Shown here: positions 22,244 through 30,384 of the stretch, piece after piece | Layout: the number at the start of each line of letters is the position of its first letter | Position numbering within the stretch: position 1 is the first letter of the stretch | Source of the DNA: Paludisphaera borealis | GTDB lineage: Bacteria > Planctomycetota > Planctomycetia > Isosphaerales > Isosphaeraceae | NCBI RefSeq assembly: GCF_001956985.1 | Contig: NZ_CP019082.1 | Location: forward strand, 4,402,001-4,466,000 | Length of the DNA stretch: 64,000 nucleotides | Direction: 5' to 3' | Notes under the pieces: generated by a model | Database searches by the model: none | What the model saw: only the letters and a program-made list of their open reading frames with translations | Told to the model about the DNA's origin: nothing | Program-made: the position numbers and the translations under genes

Positions 22244-25200
22244 ATGAGAAAGCACGCGAAGAGGCGAGCGTTCACGCCGAGGCTGGCGGTTTTGGAGCAG
22301 CGTCGTTTGCTGGCCCTGACCGCGACGTGGATCGGGCAGGATGGAAGCGACTTCGTGGGCACCGAGGGGCTGATCAACCCGCAGCGCCCCAACGACTACC
22401 AGGACATCCACATCCATTTGACGGGCCTGTCCAGTGTCGCCGTGGCCAGCGTCACGGTCACCAAGCCCGTGAGCGGCGGTTGGGTCTGGAACCCACTCGG
22501 CAACTGGTCGAACGCCGTTTATAAGCCCGCCGCCGCCCCCGGCGCGGGCGACCTCTACATGGAGCCCGAAGCCGCCGACCCCGCGGGCACGTTGTACGAC
22601 GCTATTCGCGTCGTCTACGCCGACGGGACGTTCGAGACGACCTCGATGACCACCGGCTCGGCGGTCGACCCCAACCTCCGGACGCCCGGCGAGCAGGTCA
22701 CGGCCGTCTTCGTGGGGCAGGTCGCCCAGGATTGGACCGGACCGAACATCGGCGTCGGCCCGGATGGGATCGAGGACGTTCAGATCGCCCTGTCCAACCT
22801 CTCGGCGGGCGCGGCGGTCCACGTCACGCTCACCGCCGCCACCAATCCGCCCCGGGTGTGGGAATCCGGAACCAACCCCGACGGCCACTGGAACGCCGAG
22901 CTGTTGAACCGGCCGGGGCAGAACGGGACCCTGGGAACGACCGCCGATTTGTTCATCTCCCCCGACGTCAATCTCGCCGGCGTCCCGATGACCCTGGTGG
23001 TCACCTACGAGCATCAGAACCCCGACGGGACGTACACCAACCGGAGCGGCAAGACCGACACGGTCGTCTTCACGGCGGGCGCGACGAACCCCAACCTGGC
23101 CATGCCCGCCGTCGCCCTGTCGAATCTGCCCCAAGCGAGGGCGGCGAGCCTGCCGCAAGACGCGTCGAGCCCCGGTTACTCGCACGCGGCCCTCGACGCC
23201 GGAAGCCTGGCGGCCCTTCCGTCCGGCCAGTCGTTCGCCACCGTGCGCACGGCGGTGCTCAGCAATCTCTATGGTTCGAGCTGGGCTTACACGGGGCCGG
23301 GGGCGGCGGCTCCGTATACGGGCGGATCGAGCCCGATGGCCCTGCGGTACAACGCGACGACCGGCGTCTTCGACTTCCCGCCCGTCCGCGACGAGGCCGG
23401 TTCGACCCTCACCCTGCTGCTGACGTTCAACGACGGCTCCCAGGCCGTCGCCCGGTTCGCCGGTGCGCCGAGCGACATCGGCCGTCTCGTCGCCGACACC
23501 CGCGTCGGGGCGAGCGTTCTCGACGTCGCCAGCGCCGCCGACCTGCTCGCCAAGCTCCAGGCCCACGCGCCGAACATCCATCTCACGGCCGGCTCGTACA
23601 CGCTGAACGCCCCCTTGAATCTGAACTATCCGGTTCAGATCACGGCCGATCCGGGGATCACGCTGAACTTCGCCCTGTCGAGCGCCCCGGGCTCGCCGTG
23701 GAACTCGTCGTCGGGGGCGATTCTCGTCTCGTCCAGCCACGTCGCCCTCGACGGCTTTGCGATTCGGTTCCAGGGCGATTCCAGCATGTGGACGGCCGCC
23801 GATCGGGCCATCGTCCAGGCGGGGCTGGGCGATTCGAACGTCGACCTCTCGTTCACTCATCTCGACGTCCAGGCTCCGTCGGCCGCGATCGCCACGGGCT
23901 ACGAGGACGCGTTCGCCCTCATGAACTTCGACCCGGGCGATTCGGGCCTGATCGCGAATAACATTCTCAAGGGAGGCTGGATCCAGCTCGGGGTCGGACC
24001 CTGGCAGGTGCTCGACAACGATTATCAAGGCGCGGTCGCCAACACGATCACGCCGACCTTTCTGAACGTGCACACGAGCCACGACCTGACGATCACCGGC
24101 AACCACGTCCACGCCCTCGCCCCCGCCGGGATCACGCTGCGGTTCCTGGTCTACGGCGGCGGCGATTCCGGTCAAGGGATCGGCAACCTGATCGAGAACA
24201 ACACGATCGACGGCGGAATCGGCACGCCCGTGAACGCGGTGCTCCCACCCGGGTACGACAACAGCCCCGAGATCATCTTGCTGGAAACCTACCAGCCTCG
24301 GTTCGAGGGGAAGCCGTCGGCCGTCTCGCCCGACGGTTCGATCGTACAGATCCCCGCGCTGCGCGGCCCGTCGGCCCGGACCGGCGACGTCGTCTCGATC
24401 GTGACCGGACCGTACGCCGGCCAGTGGCGGATGATCGCCCAGGCGCTCAGCCCGACGCGGTACCTGCTCGCCGATCCGCTGCCGCAAGGCGACTATGTGA
24501 TCACGATCGGCCGCGGCTTCGTCGACCAGACCTATCGCGGCAACACGATCGACGTGCGTGGGATGTCCCCGGACAACGTCGGCCTCGTCATCAGCGGCAA
24601 CGATTGGGGCACGCGCATCGTCGACAACACGTTCCTCGGCGGCGACGGCCTCCGCATCGGCGCCGGCTCCAGCGAGAGCGCCTTCGAAGGTCAATACGGC
24701 GCGCCCTGGGGCTGGTCGCGGCTGCCGGTCTTCGACCTCGCGATCAACGGCAACATGTTCGACGACGCCTATATCTCGCTCAGCGTCGCGCACGACCGGC
24801 AATACAACAAGTCGAGCAGTGGGCGGACGTATCTCACGGGCGACTTCTCGAACAACGAGATCCTCTGGACGGACCCCTCCCGATCCCCCGTGACGATCGG
24901 CGTCGGCCCCGATCCCAGCACCGGCGCGCCCGCCTACACTCAGGTGAATTACCCCTGGCTCACCCTCGACGAGATCCGCCTGACCATGCGGAACAACTGG
25001 AGGAGCGACCCCTCGACCGGCGCGGTGGCGGCGACGATCCGGGTCTACGCCGCGACGCTCAACGGCGTCGGGGCCAACGATCAGACCTACCTTCTGCCGA
25101 CCGCCTCGATCATCACGGCCGCGTCGCTCGGGCAGGACGGGAGCGACTTCGTCGGCGGCTCGGGGACGCCGACCAGCCCCGACGACTTCCAGGACGTCCA

Positions 25201-26314
25201 CCTCGTCCTGACCGGCCTCTCCGCCGAGAAGCCGATCACCCAGATCATCGTCACCGGCTACGGCGGTGGCGATTGGCGGCTGGTCGGCGCCCCCGCCGCT
25301 TACGCGTTGGCCCTCGTCCGCCACGGGACTACCGCCGACCTTTACCTCCAGCCCTACCAGAACGAGACCGGACGCTATATCACGGTCGAGATCCATTTCG
25401 CCGACGGAACCACGGTTTATCCGATCGTCGACGCCCTTTATGCGACGGCCCGCCTGCCGATGCCGATCGATCCGGCGCCGGCGACGAGCGTCGTCTCGGC
25501 CCGAGGCGGCAACGCGGCCGGCGGCGAGGGCCCGGCGCAGGCGTTCGACGGCGACGTCCACACCAAATGGCTCGACTTCTCGGCGACCAGTTGGATCCAG
25601 TATCAATTCGCCGGCGGCGCCGCCCCGGTGATCTCGCAATACACGATCACCAGCGCCAACGACACGGCCTTGTACCCCGGCCGCGCGCCGAACAGTTGGA
25701 CGCTCAAGGGCTCCAACGACGGCGTGACCTGGACGACCCTCGACGTCCGGACCAACGAGGCGGTCACGTCCAACTTCACCGCGACCACGTATACATTCGC
25801 GAATTCGACGCCGTTCAAGATCTACAAGCTCGACGACATCGTCAGCAACGGCGACCCGATCATCCAGATCGCCGAGATTCAATTCCAGACGACGCCGACG
25901 GCCGCCGCGGTCGTCGACCTGGCGCGAGGCAAGGCCGCGACCTCCTCCTCCAACGAAGGCGCCGCTTACGCGCCCGGCAATACGGTCGACGGCGACGCCT
26001 CGACGCGATGGTCAAGCGGCCAGTGGCTGCAAAACAACAACATCGGCTGGATCACCATCGACCTGGGCGCCGTCTTCGACGTCGACCGCGTGACGCTCGA
26101 CTGGGAGGCCGCCTTCGCGGTCGACTACCAGATCCAGGTCAGCGACGACGCCAGCAACTGGACGACCGTCCAATCCGTCGTCGGCAACACGACCAGCGGC
26201 GTGATCGATTACACGAACCTCTCGGCGCGCGGCCGCTACGTGCGGATCTACTGCACCCAGGTCAACGCCACCAAGAACTACTCGCTGTACGATGTGAACG
26301 TCTACGGCGCGTGA
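22244..26314 (+). CDS. Large secreted beta-helix / discoidin-domain surface protein
   Basis: 1356 residues. The basic N-terminus ends in LAVLEQRRLLALTATW, the LExR-LL motif found at the start of many large planctomycete surface proteins. A repeated module (xGQDxxD...QDhHhxLTGLS) occurs near residues 28-110, 152-245 and 957-1060. Between them, about residues 410-930, lies a right-handed beta-helix (NLIENNTIDGGIGT, NVGLVISGNDWGTRIVDNTF). Two F5/8 type C (discoidin) domains end the protein, at about 1084-1215 and 1223-1356 (NTVDGDASTRWSSGQW, DVDRVTLDWEAAFAVDYQIQ). It is probably a carbohydrate-binding or polysaccharide-lyase-like extracellular protein. No catalytic residues can be claimed. It is a single-gene unit. 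Confidence 0.85.
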   Translation: MRKHAKRRAFTPRLAVLEQRRLLALTATWIGQDGSDFVGTEGLINPQRPNDYQDIHIHLTGLSSVAVASVTVTKPVSGGWVWNPLGNWSNAVYKPAAAPGAGDLYMEPEAADPAGTLYDAIRVVYADGTFETTSMTTGSAVDPNLRTPGEQVTAVFVGQVAQDWTGPNIGVGPDGIEDVQIALSNLSAGAAVHVTLTAATNPPRVWESGTNPDGHWNAELLNRPGQNGTLGTTADLFISPDVNLAGVPMTLVVTYEHQNPDGTYTNRSGKTDTVVFTAGATNPNLAMPAVALSNLPQARAASLPQDASSPGYSHAALDAGSLAALPSGQSFATVRTAVLSNLYGSSWAYTGPGAAAPYTGGSSPMALRYNATTGVFDFPPVRDEAGSTLTLLLTFNDGSQAVARFAGAPSDIGRLVADTRVGASVLDVASAADLLAKLQAHAPNIHLTAGSYTLNAPLNLNYPVQITADPGITLNFALSSAPGSPWNSSSGAILVSSSHVALDGFAIRFQGDSSMWTAADRAIVQAGLGDSNVDLSFTHLDVQAPSAAIATGYEDAFALMNFDPGDSGLIANNILKGGWIQLGVGPWQVLDNDYQGAVANTITPTFLNVHTSHDLTITGNHVHALAPAGITLRFLVYGGGDSGQGIGNLIENNTIDGGIGTPVNAVLPPGYDNSPEIILLETYQPRFEGKPSAVSPDGSIVQIPALRGPSARTGDVVSIVTGPYAGQWRMIAQALSPTRYLLADPLPQGDYVITIGRGFVDQTYRGNTIDVRGMSPDNVGLVISGNDWGTRIVDNTFLGGDGLRIGAGSSESAFEGQYGAPWGWSRLPVFDLAINGNMFDDAYISLSVAHDRQYNKSSSGRTYLTGDFSNNEILWTDPSRSPVTIGVGPDPSTGAPAYTQVNYPWLTLDEIRLTMRNNWRSDPSTGAVAATIRVYAATLNGVGANDQTYLLPTASIITAASLGQDGSDFVGGSGTPTSPDDFQDVHLVLTGLSAEKPITQIIVTGYGGGDWRLVGAPAAYALALVRHGTTADLYLQPYQNETGRYITVEIHFADGTTVYPIVDALYATARLPMPIDPAPATSVVSARGGNAAGGEGPAQAFDGDVHTKWLDFSATSWIQYQFAGGAAPVISQYTITSANDTALYPGRAPNSWTLKGSNDGVTWTTLDVRTNEAVTSNFTATTYTFANSTPFKIYKLDDIVSNGDPIIQIAEIQFQTTPTAAAVVDLARGKAATSSSNEGAAYAPGNTVDGDASTRWSSGQWLQNNNIGWITIDLGAVFDVDRVTLDWEAAFAVDYQIQVSDDASNWTTVQSVVGNTTSGVIDYTNLSARGRYVRIYCTQVNATKNYSLYDVNVYGA

Positions 26315-26346: not shown

Positions 26347-26640
26347 ATTACGAGCCCGAAGCGCCAGCGAGTGAATTCCCCGCTGGCCGACCGGACCATT
26401 CACTCGCTGGCGCTTCGGGCTGCTCTGAAGATACCTCGGCCAGGGCTGCCCCATTACAAGCTCGAAGCGCCAGCGAGTGGATGGATTCGACCCGCCGATG
26501 GGAAATTCACTCGCTGGCGCTTCGGGCTGCTCTGAAGATACCTCGGCCAGGGCTGCCCCATTACAAGCTCGAAGCGCCAGCGAGTGGATGGATTCGACCC
26601 GCCGATGGGAAATTCACTCGCTGGCGCTTCGAGCTTGTAT
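26347..26640. repeat. Cluster of family 1 palindromes with 107-bp tandem duplication
   Basis: The first palindrome has arms at 26347-26376 and 26398-26424. A 107-bp unit starting with TGCTCTGAAGATACCTCGGC occurs at 26421 and again at 26528, virtually identical, each containing a family 1 hairpin with a different left arm (AAGCTCGAAGCGCCAGCGAG). The near-identity of the copies shows the duplication is recent. Confidence 0.9.
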
Positions 26641-26770: not shown

Positions 26771-26911
26771 GTTGACAAGATGTGCGGTTTGGACCGATGA
26801 TCGGCGCTGGACGAGCGGTGCGTCGGCGACGGATTGGCGGCGCGTCGAGAAATTCGTCCAACGCGGTCGGGGTGCGGGAACGTATCATACTGTACGTGGG
26901 GAGGTAACGCG

Positions 26912-27709
26912 ATGCGGAAGCCGACCGACAGCGTCCCCTCCCCATCCCCCGAGGACGCGGATCGTGCGAATCAGGCGAAAACGGCCGGAAACGACGGTTC
27001 ATTGATCGGGGGCCCCGTGAACCCGCCTGACCGAAACCGAGACCGACTTAAGGTTGGACCGACGACGGTGACCCCCTCCTTGGATACCACGGCCGTTACG
27101 GCGACTTCGGGCTCCGAGGACGAGGCCAGTCTCAACGACGCCTGGCTGGTCGAGCGGGCGCGGCATGGTGATCATGCCGCATTCGCCGTGCTCGTCAGAC
27201 GTTACGAACGCAAGCTGATCCGCGTGCTGGCTCGACTGGTGCGCGATCCCGAACACGCTCGCGACCTGGCTCAAGAGACGTTCTGGCGGGTTTACAGCCG
27301 CCTCGACCGTTTCGATTCAGGCCGGCGGTTCGGCCCCTGGCTGTTCCGGGTGGGCGTCAACCTCGGGCTCGACCAGCTTCGGCGCAACAAGAGCGAGCCC
27401 CCGCCGCCGGCCTCGATCGACCGCAGTTACGACGATGGGCGAGCCCCGTTCGACCCACCCGATCCGGACCCGAGAATTCAGGCGGAGCTGGCCCAGGAGG
27501 TTCAGTTCATCCTCGCACAGATGCCCGTTTCGTACCGTACGATCCTCGTCCTCCGCGATTTAGAAGGATTCTCGTCGTCGGAGGTTGCGGCGATCGTGGG
27601 CCGTCGAGAGGCGACGGTGCGATGGCGTCTTTCCAAGGCACGCGAAAAATTCCGCTTAATCTGGGAGCGCCGCCAGGATGCGGCGCAGGAGGCAGCCACG
27701 GACGGCTGA
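26912..27709 (+). CDS. ECF-type RNA polymerase sigma factor
   Basis: 265 residues, longer than usual because of a disordered 75-residue N-terminal tail. Sigma region 2 is at about 85-150 (VRRYERKLIRVLARLVRDPE, then HARDLAQETFWRVYSRL and GPWLFRVGVNLGLDQLRR). Region 4 is at about 195-245 (QMPVSYRTILVLRDLEGFSS, then REATVRWRLSKAREK). The ATG at 26912 is preceded by GGGGAGGTAACGCG, an excellent ribosome site; an earlier in-frame start lacks one. The next gene, 8 bp downstream, encodes a zinc-finger anti-sigma factor, so this sigma is probably held inactive at the membrane until a signal arrives. Confidence 0.93.
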   Translation: MRKPTDSVPSPSPEDADRANQAKTAGNDGSLIGGPVNPPDRNRDRLKVGPTTVTPSLDTTAVTATSGSEDEASLNDAWLVERARHGDHAAFAVLVRRYERKLIRVLARLVRDPEHARDLAQETFWRVYSRLDRFDSGRRFGPWLFRVGVNLGLDQLRRNKSEPPPPASIDRSYDDGRAPFDPPDPDPRIQAELAQEVQFILAQMPVSYRTILVLRDLEGFSSSEVAAIVGRREATVRWRLSKAREKFRLIWERRQDAAQEAATDG

Positions 27710-27717
27710 CGACCCTT

Positions 27718-28626
27718 ATGAAAACAAAACCAGACCAAACAGCGTGCGCCTGGACGCGACGTCGGCTCCCCCTCTTCGTGGGAATGGCCGCCGACGCCGG
27801 ATCGACGACCGAGCGGGACGGCGATCTGAGCCGCGACGATCGGCTGTCGATCGAGGACCATCTCGACGTCTGCGGCGATTGCCGGCGGCGGCGGTCGGCC
27901 CTCGTCCGGTCGATGTCCCTCCTGTCGGCGGCGGCGGCCGAGTCGCCCGTCGAGCCCCACGCCCCGTCGCTCTGGCAAGGGGTCGCGGCCCGGATCGAGG
28001 CGGCCGAGGCGTCGCAACCGTCGATCTGGTCGCGGGTCTCTCGGGCGCTCTTGCCCGCCTCGGCTCGTACCGTCGCCGACCGCGCGACCGGCCGGCTCGA
28101 CCGCATCCGGGGCGGCCTGCCGCTCCAGCTCGCCTGGATGCGCGACTCGATCGGCCACGACCTGCCCGACCGCCTCCGAACCGCCCTCGACCGCGACGCG
28201 CGGTCGTCGGTCCGCCTCGGCGACCGGATTTTCGGGTCGCTGACCTCCCCCGCCGGCCTGGGCGCGGTCGCCGCTGCGACGGTCTTCGTCGTCGCCGCCT
28301 CGCTCGTGCACCGATCGGCGACCGAAGCCGAGGCGCGGATCGCCGCCGAATCGAGGCCGATCCCGATCGAGCTTCAGGCGGTCCCCCTGGTCATCGCGCC
28401 GGCGCGGGCCGAAGCCTCCTCGGCCGACGAGTCGCGGTCGCAGGAGTCCGAGTCGTCGACCGAACCCGAGGCCCTGGCCCAGGTTTCGACTCCGTCCTCC
28501 CCCGCCTCGGGCTCGGTCCCGGCGAGCAACGCCAGCAAGCCGGCGGCCGTCCGCCGCTACGACCACGATCTTGAATACGGCATCCCCATGCCTCCCGACG
28601 CTCGGATCGCCAAGCCCGCCTACTGA
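27718..28626 (+). CDS. Membrane-anchored zinc-finger anti-sigma factor
   Basis: 302 residues. The N-terminal ZAS-type motif HxxxCxxC is seen at H48, C52 and C55 (EDHLDVCGDC), the usual cytoplasmic sigma-binding zinc domain. One membrane segment lies at about 180-198 (GLGAVAAATVFVVAASLVH). The remaining 100 residues, outside the membrane, are rich in Ser, Ala and Glu and look disordered. A basic, Arg-rich linker separates the finger from the membrane. The gene starts 8 bp after the sigma stop, so the two are one operon. Binding and inhibition of the upstream sigma factor is inferred from motif and order. The flexible periplasmic tail would suit signal-triggered proteolysis. Confidence 0.85.
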   Translation: MKTKPDQTACAWTRRRLPLFVGMAADAGSTTERDGDLSRDDRLSIEDHLDVCGDCRRRRSALVRSMSLLSAAAAESPVEPHAPSLWQGVAARIEAAEASQPSIWSRVSRALLPASARTVADRATGRLDRIRGGLPLQLAWMRDSIGHDLPDRLRTALDRDARSSVRLGDRIFGSLTSPAGLGAVAAATVFVVAASLVHRSATEAEARIAAESRPIPIELQAVPLVIAPARAEASSADESRSQESESSTEPEALAQVSTPSSPASGSVPASNASKPAAVRRYDHDLEYGIPMPPDARIAKPAY

Positions 28627-28645
28627 CAGGACGATCAGGGAGCGG

Positions 28646-28727
28646 AATACGAGCCCGAAGCGCAAGCGAGGGGATCGCTTCGGCGACCCCGAAAATCATC
28701 CCTCGCTTGCGCTTCGGGCTCGTATTC
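28646..28727. repeat. Palindromic intergenic repeat (family 1)
   Basis: Arms at 28646-28673 and 28700-28727 with the sub-variant core CCTCGCTTGCGCTTCGGGCT. It sits between the anti-sigma gene and the HtrA-like gene, followed by the common flank TCGGACCCGG. A hairpin here could weaken read-through within the operon. Confidence 0.87.
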
Positions 28728-28803
28728 GGACCCGGTGGGCGGCCCTCGACCATCACCTTGAAGCCATCTTGAGCTTGAGCCTTGGTTTTTTGAGAGTCCC
28801 CCC

Positions 28804-30384
28804 ATGGCGCCCCGCGAGACCCACGTCCGGAACCGCCTGCTCCTCTGGCTCGCCAGCGGCCTGGGGTTCGCGGTCCTGGCCTGGGCGGTCTCGAACGGCT
28901 CGCTCAACCGGCTGAGTTGGGGACCGTCGGCCCGAGCGCCGGAACCCTCCTTCCCGACGCGGGCGCAGGTGGCGAAGGACGCCAAGGCCGGCCCGTCGCG
29001 AGCCTTCGCCCGCTGGCTGGCGACGTCGGGCGCGATGGGCGTCGACGGCGACGGCGACCTCGATTCCGACCCGAACGCGTTCCCGATCCCGGCCGCCCCC
29101 CCCACGCTCGCGCACCGCGAGCACGAAGAGTCCGACGACGACGAGGTCTTGTTCGCGGCGATGGAGCGGCTCGAACGGCGGATGGCGGCCGGCATGATCC
29201 GCGCCCGCGACTCGGTGGTGACGCTCGAATACAAGGCGGCCGACGGACCCGACGGCACCCGCCGCGTGGCCACGGGGGTCGTCATCAATCCGCAAGGCGA
29301 CGTCCTCTCGGTCCGGATCGATCGGCCCGTCCGGGCCCCGGGCGAGAGCGAGGCCGACGACGAGACGGGCCCGGCGCGGATCACCGCGCGCGACGCCTTC
29401 GGCCGCCAGCACCTGGCGCGCTGGATCGCCGCCGATCCCGACACCGGCCTGACGCTTTTGAGGATCGCCCCGCGCGCCGTCCGGCCGATCCGCCAGGCCG
29501 CCGAAGGCCCGGCGCTCGGCAGCCAGGTGTTTGTGATCGGCAACCCGTTCGGCCTCGGGCACTCGGTCAGCCGGGGCCAGATCGCCGGCCTCGACCGGAC
29601 GCTGGAGCTGCGGTCGCGGCAGATCAACGGCCTGATCCAGGTGCAGACCCCGCTCTTTCCGGGCGACAGCGGCGCGGTGGTGGTGAACTTCCGGGGCCAG
29701 TGGCTGGGCCTGATCCGCAGCGGCCTGGCGATCCCGTCGACGGAGAACGCTCCGACCGGCGAGCGCGGCAACGACCTCGGTTTCGCCGTCCCCGCCGACC
29801 ACGCCTTGTGGATCGCCGCCCAGCTCCGCGACCTCGGCCAGGTCGACCGCGCGTATCTGGGCGTCCGCCTTGAATCGGACTCGGCCCTCGCGACCTCTCC
29901 CGAAGGCGCCGCGCTCCGCGACGTCTTGCCCGACACCCCCGCGGCGCGGGGAGGGCTTCGGATCGGCGACCTGATCGTCTCGTTCGACGACCAGCCGACG
30001 CGCACCGCCCTCGACCTGACCGAGCGGCTCGACCGCACGCCCGCCAGGAAGGCCGTCCGGCTCGAAATCGTTCGGGGAGGCGGGGCCAAGCCCGAGCGCA
30101 AGGTCGTCTGGGTCGAGACGGCCAACCGGCCCGACGTCCCTCGTCCCGCCCCGCCGACCGCCGTCGTCGTCACCCCGACCGCCGCCGCGACCCCCGCCGC
30201 GCCGACTTCGCCCAAACATCTCCGCGCCCCGGTCGGCCCGACCCGCGCCGAGGAGCTTCCGCTCACGCTCCCCCCGGCCGTCGCCGACCGCCTCGACCGC
30301 CTCGAACGCCGGCTCAACCTGCTCGAACATCCCGAGCCGAGCCGTCCCGAGAAGCAGGCGAGCACCGCCCAGATCGCTCCCTGA
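28804..30384 (+). CDS. Membrane-anchored HtrA/DegS-like protein with degenerate catalytic triad
   Basis: 526 residues. One N-terminal membrane segment (about residues 11-31, RLLLWLASGLGFAVLAWAVS), a disordered linker, a trypsin-like domain (about 130-330), one PDZ domain (about 345-435: AYLGVRLESD, TPAARGGLRIGDLIVSFDD) and a Pro/Ala-rich tail. The HtrA fold is clear from VFVIGNPFGLGHSVSRGQIA and the serine loop FPGDSGAVVV (S289 kept). Where HtrA has TNNHVV the sequence is SVRIDR (I172 in place of His), and where it has TDLALL it is TGLTLL (G215 in place of Asp). Proteolysis by the usual mechanism is therefore unlikely. It follows the sigma/anti-sigma pair by 177 bp and may bind periplasmic peptides or the anti-sigma tail. 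That role is inference. Confidence 0.85.
   Translation: MAPRETHVRNRLLLWLASGLGFAVLAWAVSNGSLNRLSWGPSARAPEPSFPTRAQVAKDAKAGPSRAFARWLATSGAMGVDGDGDLDSDPNAFPIPAAPPTLAHREHEESDDDEVLFAAMERLERRMAAGMIRARDSVVTLEYKAADGPDGTRRVATGVVINPQGDVLSVRIDRPVRAPGESEADDETGPARITARDAFGRQHLARWIAADPDTGLTLLRIAPRAVRPIRQAAEGPALGSQVFVIGNPFGLGHSVSRGQIAGLDRTLELRSRQINGLIQVQTPLFPGDSGAVVVNFRGQWLGLIRSGLAIPSTENAPTGERGNDLGFAVPADHALWIAAQLRDLGQVDRAYLGVRLESDSALATSPEGAALRDVLPDTPAARGGLRIGDLIVSFDDQPTRTALDLTERLDRTPARKAVRLEIVRGGGAKPERKVVWVETANRPDVPRPAPPTAVVVTPTAAATPAAPTSPKHLRAPVGPTRAEELPLTLPPAVADRLDRLERRLNLLEHPEPSRPEKQASTAQIAP

Follow-up and report, generated by a model that had tools for sequence, protein, structure and literature searches.

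The window studied here is a stretch of 64,000 nucleotides of planctomycete genome DNA (Paludisphaera borealis; genome size 7.65 Mb, three contigs), and at positions 26912–30384 of its plus strand it carries three genes that encode an extracytoplasmic function (ECF) σ factor, a single-pass zinc-finger anti-σ factor, and an HtrA-like protein that we refer to as PSH, a name given here to an HtrA-fold pseudoprotease. Alignment with relatives and paralogues confirmed that PSH is a pseudoprotease, and we lean towards the view that the three genes work together as a single autoregulated module for envelope signalling, in which PSH docks the C-terminal tail of the anti-σ factor. What is new is an ECF/anti-σ system that pairs an HtrA pseudoprotease with a matching C-terminal motif on the anti-σ factor. 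The three genes had been described before in a reading made from the letters of the window alone (the sequence-only reading), as a σ factor, a zinc-finger anti-σ factor with one membrane segment, and an anchored HtrA-like protein with a PDZ domain, and our Pfam and NCBIfam analyses found all three to be real and placed as it had said. The operon-bearing named relatives closest to the window are Paludisphaera soli, Aquisphaera insulae, and Singulisphaera.

PSH (526 aa, 28804–30384, plus strand) scored above the cut-off for both of its recognised domains, with 62.7 bits for Trypsin_2 and 42.2 bits for PDZ_6. Its trypsin-like domain (residues 136–307, positions 29209–29724) is degenerate. When the protein was aligned with DegS and DegQ of E. 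coli and with seven paralogues from its own genome, the catalytic His was absent, Gly215 (GGC, 29446–29448) stood at the Asp position, and Ser289 (AGC, 29668–29670) was kept, in agreement with the residues named in the sequence-only reading; the His position reads as Ile172 (ATC, 29317–29319) or as a two-residue deletion, according to where the aligner places the gap. The seven paralogues, all canonical HtrAs, showed His-Asp-Ser in the same alignment. Among 20 PSH orthologues from the family Isosphaeraceae, the residue at the His position was Ile (17) or Val (3), that at the Asp position was invariably Gly (20), and that at the Ser position was Ser (16), Asn (3), or Thr (1); the GDSG loop was conserved. 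A second, independent genome collection provided 17 orthologous loci, in all of which His and Asp were lost, and eleven more distant relatives from other families and phyla, all of which read His-Asp-Ser. Because His and Asp are missing across the orthologues and the triad is intact in the distant relatives, the loss defines the orthologous group and is no local accident. The sequence-only reading had suggested aligning relatives to see whether this loss goes together with the operon, and it does so in both sets; close homologues with a full triad, which would have spoken against its interpretation, were looked for and found neither among the 20 orthologues nor among the 17 loci. A frameshift, a pseudogene, or a sequencing artefact was ruled out, the same substitutions being present in 20 orthologues under purifying selection. 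Two further HtrA-like proteins with altered triads were observed: a second degenerate one in the window genome (L007, G000:C1:1891103-1891999), which reads Gln-Asp-Ala, and L119 in genome G018, which reads His-Asp-Arg.

No part of PSH is better conserved than the dead protease domain, which is under purifying selection and not decaying. Within Paludisphaera, pN/pS and mean dN/dS were 0.36 and 0.29 for the protease domain, 0.40 and 0.33 for the PDZ domain, and approximately 0.8 and 0.7 for the linkers, and the mean pairwise identity over all PSH orthologues was 0.61 for the protease domain, 0.53 for the PDZ domain, and 0.25 for the N-terminal linker. The sequence-only reading had called for a structural model, and the AlphaFold2 prediction, built with 19 orthologues, was of an intact HtrA fold: an N-terminal helix, a long helix (residues 105–135), a trypsin-like double barrel, one PDZ domain, and a short C-terminal helix, with predicted local distance difference test (pLDDT) scores mostly above 90 in the domain cores. 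The best structural matches of this model were DegQ, DegP, and DegS (Z about 29; DegS 3gdv_C, Z 28.9). A trypsin-like domain followed by a PDZ domain places PSH in the HtrA/Deg fold, and lacking the His-Asp-Ser triad it does not belong to the active HtrA/Deg proteases. The PDZ domain (residues 346–428, positions 29839–30087) has an intact YLGV-type carboxylate loop within the conserved segment VDRAYLGV, and the C-terminal helix (LERRLxxLE, positions 30274–30327), read from the orthologues and the model, is a possible coiled coil. Like DegS, PSH combines an N-terminal anchor, a hydrophobic helix at residues 5–31 of the model, with a single PDZ domain. In 5 orthologues (L045, L046, L047, L050, and L051) the long hydrophobic helix is replaced by what appears by eye to be a lipobox-like N-terminus, and therefore anchoring seems to be kept while its form changes. 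The reading frame of one further orthologue (L038:5643-6630, genome G002) runs far past the usual end into unrelated sequence, possibly because of a frameshift near its C-terminus.

The anti-σ factor (302 aa, 27718–28626, plus strand) belongs to the class I (ZAS) anti-σ factors by its HxxxCxxC pattern, upstream Cys, and membrane segment (a helix at approximately residues 178–200). It scored 21.7 bits against zf-HC2, just below the cut-off of 22.2, and the residues C10, H48, C52, and C55 of the ZAS pattern were invariant in 17 orthologues. Its C-terminus is a conserved tail (DHDLEYGIPMPPDARIAKPAY-COOH, positions 28561–28623) with the consensus FDLDxGTPMPPDxRxxKPxY-COOH, or in degenerate form [FY]DL[DE]xGtPMPPdxRxxKPxY-COOH. 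The mean pairwise identity of the last 21 residues was 53% versus 25% for the periplasmic linker, and the terminal Tyr and one Pro of the tail were invariant in 17/17 orthologues. The tail is predicted to be disordered (pLDDT of about 41–61) and, from the topology of both proteins, to share the periplasmic side of the membrane with the PDZ domain of PSH. PDZ domains of the HtrA type take C-terminal peptides that end in a hydrophobic residue, and structures of DegS and AlgW with C-terminal peptides were among the structural matches of the PSH model. The anti-σ factor's own conserved C-terminus is thus the obvious candidate ligand of the PSH PDZ domain, and we regard binding between the two as probable, if only just. 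The proposal of the sequence-only reading that PSH senses peptides with its PDZ domain instead of cutting holds to this extent: PSH is a pseudoprotease and its PDZ loop is intact, but the likeliest ligand is the end of the anti-σ factor and not stray peptides.

We compared the distribution of tail and PSH in 45 genomes of the family, 40 of which have an orthologue of the σ factor, using a hidden Markov model (HMM) of 24 positions for the tail. PSH was detected in 24 of the 45 genomes, or 25 with G034, where it runs off the contig end; in the fragmented assembly of G060, PSH lies near a contig end and neither σ factor nor tail was found. The HMM detected the tail in 24/24 genomes with both σ factor and PSH and in 0/16 with the σ factor and no PSH, so that among the 40 σ-bearing genomes 24 have PSH and tail, 16 have neither, and none has one alone. 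Each PSH genome gave one strong match, always the anti-σ factor of the σ operon. In the PSH-less loci that were read, the anti-σ factor keeps its N-terminal part and has an unrelated end. Across 391 other genomes of the phylum no convincing match was obtained; two weak matches outside the family (E 6e-4) were not counted, as neither extends to the last positions of the tail profile, and one (L195) continues past the motif. On an rpoB tree the distribution of PSH needs 5 changes, most simply explained by one gain and several losses. Both PSH and tail have been lost from genus g19, whose nested position within the PSH genomes is fully supported. Three independent contrasts on strongly supported branches all showed the HMM-defined tail following PSH (3/3). 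We take this co-occurrence as suggestive of a link between the two.

The σ factor (265 aa, 26912–27709, plus strand) is an ECF σ factor with only the region 2 and region 4.2 domains, Sigma70_r2 (61.1 bits) and r4_2 (45.7 bits) both lying above the cut-off and TIGR02937 reaching 85.4 against a cut-off of 42.9. Just upstream lies an ECF-type promoter-like site, TCCAACG-N17-CGTATCATA (26857–26889, plus strand). A related site, TCCAACG-N16/17-CGTATCATA-like, is found just 5' of the σ gene in most loci, whether PSH is present or absent. The pattern occurs once in the window genome, before the σ operon (reversed control pattern, 0), and in 4/6 genomes of the genus, always before the σ gene (control pattern, 0), and the site is probably autoregulatory. 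None of the 17 loci examined has an ECF-type site upstream of PSH, which makes expression of PSH from the σ operon probable. On the sequence side this is good evidence for the co-regulation with the σ pair on which the sequence-only reading depended. The single genomic match points to a regulon of very few members, which may be no larger than this operon; a pattern search for a wider regulon returned the operon itself and one site with two mismatches, which looks like chance. Further upstream, a σ70-type promoter-like site, TTGACA-N18-GATGAT (26772–26801, plus strand), is a consensus match only, and a like site was present at a like position in the Paludisphaera loci L038–L042 and in L043. A palindromic repeat with arms GAGCCCGAAGCGCMAGCGAG approximately 51 bp apart is frequent in the window (20 arm matches versus 0.15 expected), with one copy between the anti-σ and PSH genes (28651–28721) and several stacked 5' of the σ gene (26352–26636 and others). 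Upstream of the operon, positions 22244–26314 encode a protein of 1356 aa that contains F5/8 type C domains.

In the mechanism that we propose, the cytoplasmic zinc-finger domain of the anti-σ factor would hold the ECF σ factor, and PSH, attached by a membrane or lipid anchor, would face the periplasm on the side of the anti-σ tail and dock its end (...KPxY-COOH) in the PDZ domain. Bound PSH would then shield or organize the periplasmic part of the anti-σ factor in the manner of RseB, a sign of the effect that we offer tentatively, by analogy and with the conserved tail and its co-occurrence with PSH as support, and hold to be less probable than the binding itself. A signal, perhaps misfolded proteins with competing C-termini or a ligand bound by the dead protease domain, would break the contact between PSH and the tail and expose the freed anti-σ factor to genuine proteases, a canonical HtrA and an RseP-type site-2 protease. 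The identity of the signal and that of the cutting proteases are parts of the model that we infer. Candidates for cutting the anti-σ factor are present in the window genome: canonical HtrAs with the triad His-Asp-Ser, seven or more of them, and an M50 protease of the RseP type that carries PDZ domains, any one of which could serve. The suggestion of the sequence-only reading that signalling would work without the classical protease stays a conjecture. A bolder claim, one that in our estimate falls slightly short of probable, is that the anti-σ factor carries as its C-terminus a genetically encoded ligand for the PDZ domain of a pseudo-HtrA from the same operon that is dedicated to reading it. 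The PDZ-HtrA logic of DegS, which senses the stray ends of outer-membrane proteins and cuts the anti-σ factor, would then have been converted into one of holding the anti-σ factor by its end without cutting.

Several observations weigh against docking of the tail by PSH as the explanation of the operon. Genus g14 (genomes G018 and G032, loci L084 and L083) has no PSH and yet its anti-σ factors end in ...DPRD[SA]KP[AV]Y; this remnant may reflect another reader of the tail end, or a recent loss of PSH and an intermediate of tail loss. A search for PSH elsewhere in these genomes gave ordinary HtrAs with full triads as its best matches. If the remnant is scored as a tail, the contrasts that agree drop to 2/3, and with three contrasts the sign test gives p = 0.25, significance being unreachable with so few. 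The anti-σ and PSH genes of the window are separated by a gap of 177 bp that contains the palindromic repeat. Finally, the dead protease domain is more conserved than the PDZ domain, and therefore PDZ docking cannot be the whole function of PSH.

This last point fits a protein–protein surface, as would be expected if PSH acted like MamO, an HtrA pseudoprotease that activates MamE-dependent proteolysis (PMC4794232). PSH would in that case bind a genuine HtrA and activate or recruit it, possibly by forming a mixed oligomer with it, and this protease would cut the anti-σ factor, the tail serving as substrate handle. Canonical paralogues are available for this in the window genome, but no particular one was tied to the σ operon, and positive and negative roles of PSH predict the same sequence features. 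We rate such activation as unlikely on the whole rather than remote. The g14 remnant and the small number of independent losses are also compatible with a tail read by another PDZ protein, such as the RseP-type M50 protease or a canonical HtrA, PSH having a separate role and the co-occurrence reflecting shared ancestry. However, the full tail is missing from all genomes with the σ factor and no PSH (in which persistence of RseP and canonical HtrAs was checked in part), including the fully supported nested genus g19, and this explanation appears improbable to us.

Equally improbable, in our judgement, is that PSH is a σ-controlled envelope chaperone or adaptor with no part in anti-σ control. 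In its favour, a proper HtrA is found next to the mycobacterial sigE locus, sharing an operon with rseA and tatB, an arrangement that still awaits an explanation (PMC10027907), but the anti-σ tail and its joint loss with PSH would be left unexplained. Least probable by far is that PSH is still an enzyme with an unusual catalytic arrangement. The conserved GDSG loop and the retention of Ser289 in 16/20 orthologues would agree with this; however, Ser is replaced by Asn or Thr in 4 orthologues whose operon is typical in other respects, no conserved His substitutes for the lost one, and an alternative catalytic His was ruled out, as His253 is not invariant (Gln in some) and Ser is lost in 4.

Envelope stress sensing by HtrA proteins is usually explained by proteolysis, and docking of the anti-σ tail by PSH would, if true, be a natural case of an HtrA protein that signals by binding alone. 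It would also provide a mechanism for an ECF system in planctomycetes, where many such systems have yet to be characterised, and the PSH-less sister genera are natural knock-outs. Literature searches on pseudoproteases with anti-σ factors or PDZ domains returned nothing relevant, a weak absence given the thin coverage of subscription journals, and under the same coverage a search on HtrA, planctomycetes, and ECF factors turned up only a general review.

Among known systems, the mycobacterial sigE and rseA-htrA-tatB genes share with the window the order σ factor, anti-σ factor, HtrA (PMC10027907), but in mycobacteria sigE and rseA are not transcribed together, and the HtrA there has been described as a serine protease that is essential and that degrades a cell-wall amidase. 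MamO, whose noncatalytic role (PMC4794232) is in biomineralisation and which keeps H116 and D149, is likewise a pseudoprotease with the HtrA fold that is conserved within a gene cluster, and it has Thr for Ser as in one PSH orthologue; unlike MamO, PSH has lost His and Asp and is tied to a σ/anti-σ pair, and it scored 17.5 bits against the NCBIfam MamO model (cut-off 800). With the site-1 proteases DegS and AlgW, PSH shares the fold, one N-terminal anchor, and one PDZ domain, but it lacks His and Asp, its Ser is not fixed, and it scored 85.7 bits against the NCBIfam DegS equivalog (cut-off 422.95). The sequence-only reading had seen in the operon a mirror of RpoE-RseA-DegS; the list of components is indeed similar, but the gene order is not, since the PSH gene lies inside the σ operon and degS of E. 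coli is a neighbour of degQ, away from rpoE. The RpoE-RseA-RseB system of E. coli and the AlgU-MucA-MucB system of Pseudomonas also consist of a σ factor, a membrane anti-σ factor, and a non-enzymatic periplasmic partner, and RseB and MucB bind the periplasmic part of RseA and MucA and suppress site-1 cleavage (PMC8545111). RseB has an unrelated lipid-binding fold, whereas trypsin and PDZ are the sole domains recognised in PSH, which has the HtrA fold and a membrane or lipid anchor and probably binds the extreme C-terminus of its anti-σ factor. By analogy, the PSH module would most likely work like RseA-RseB and not like DegS.

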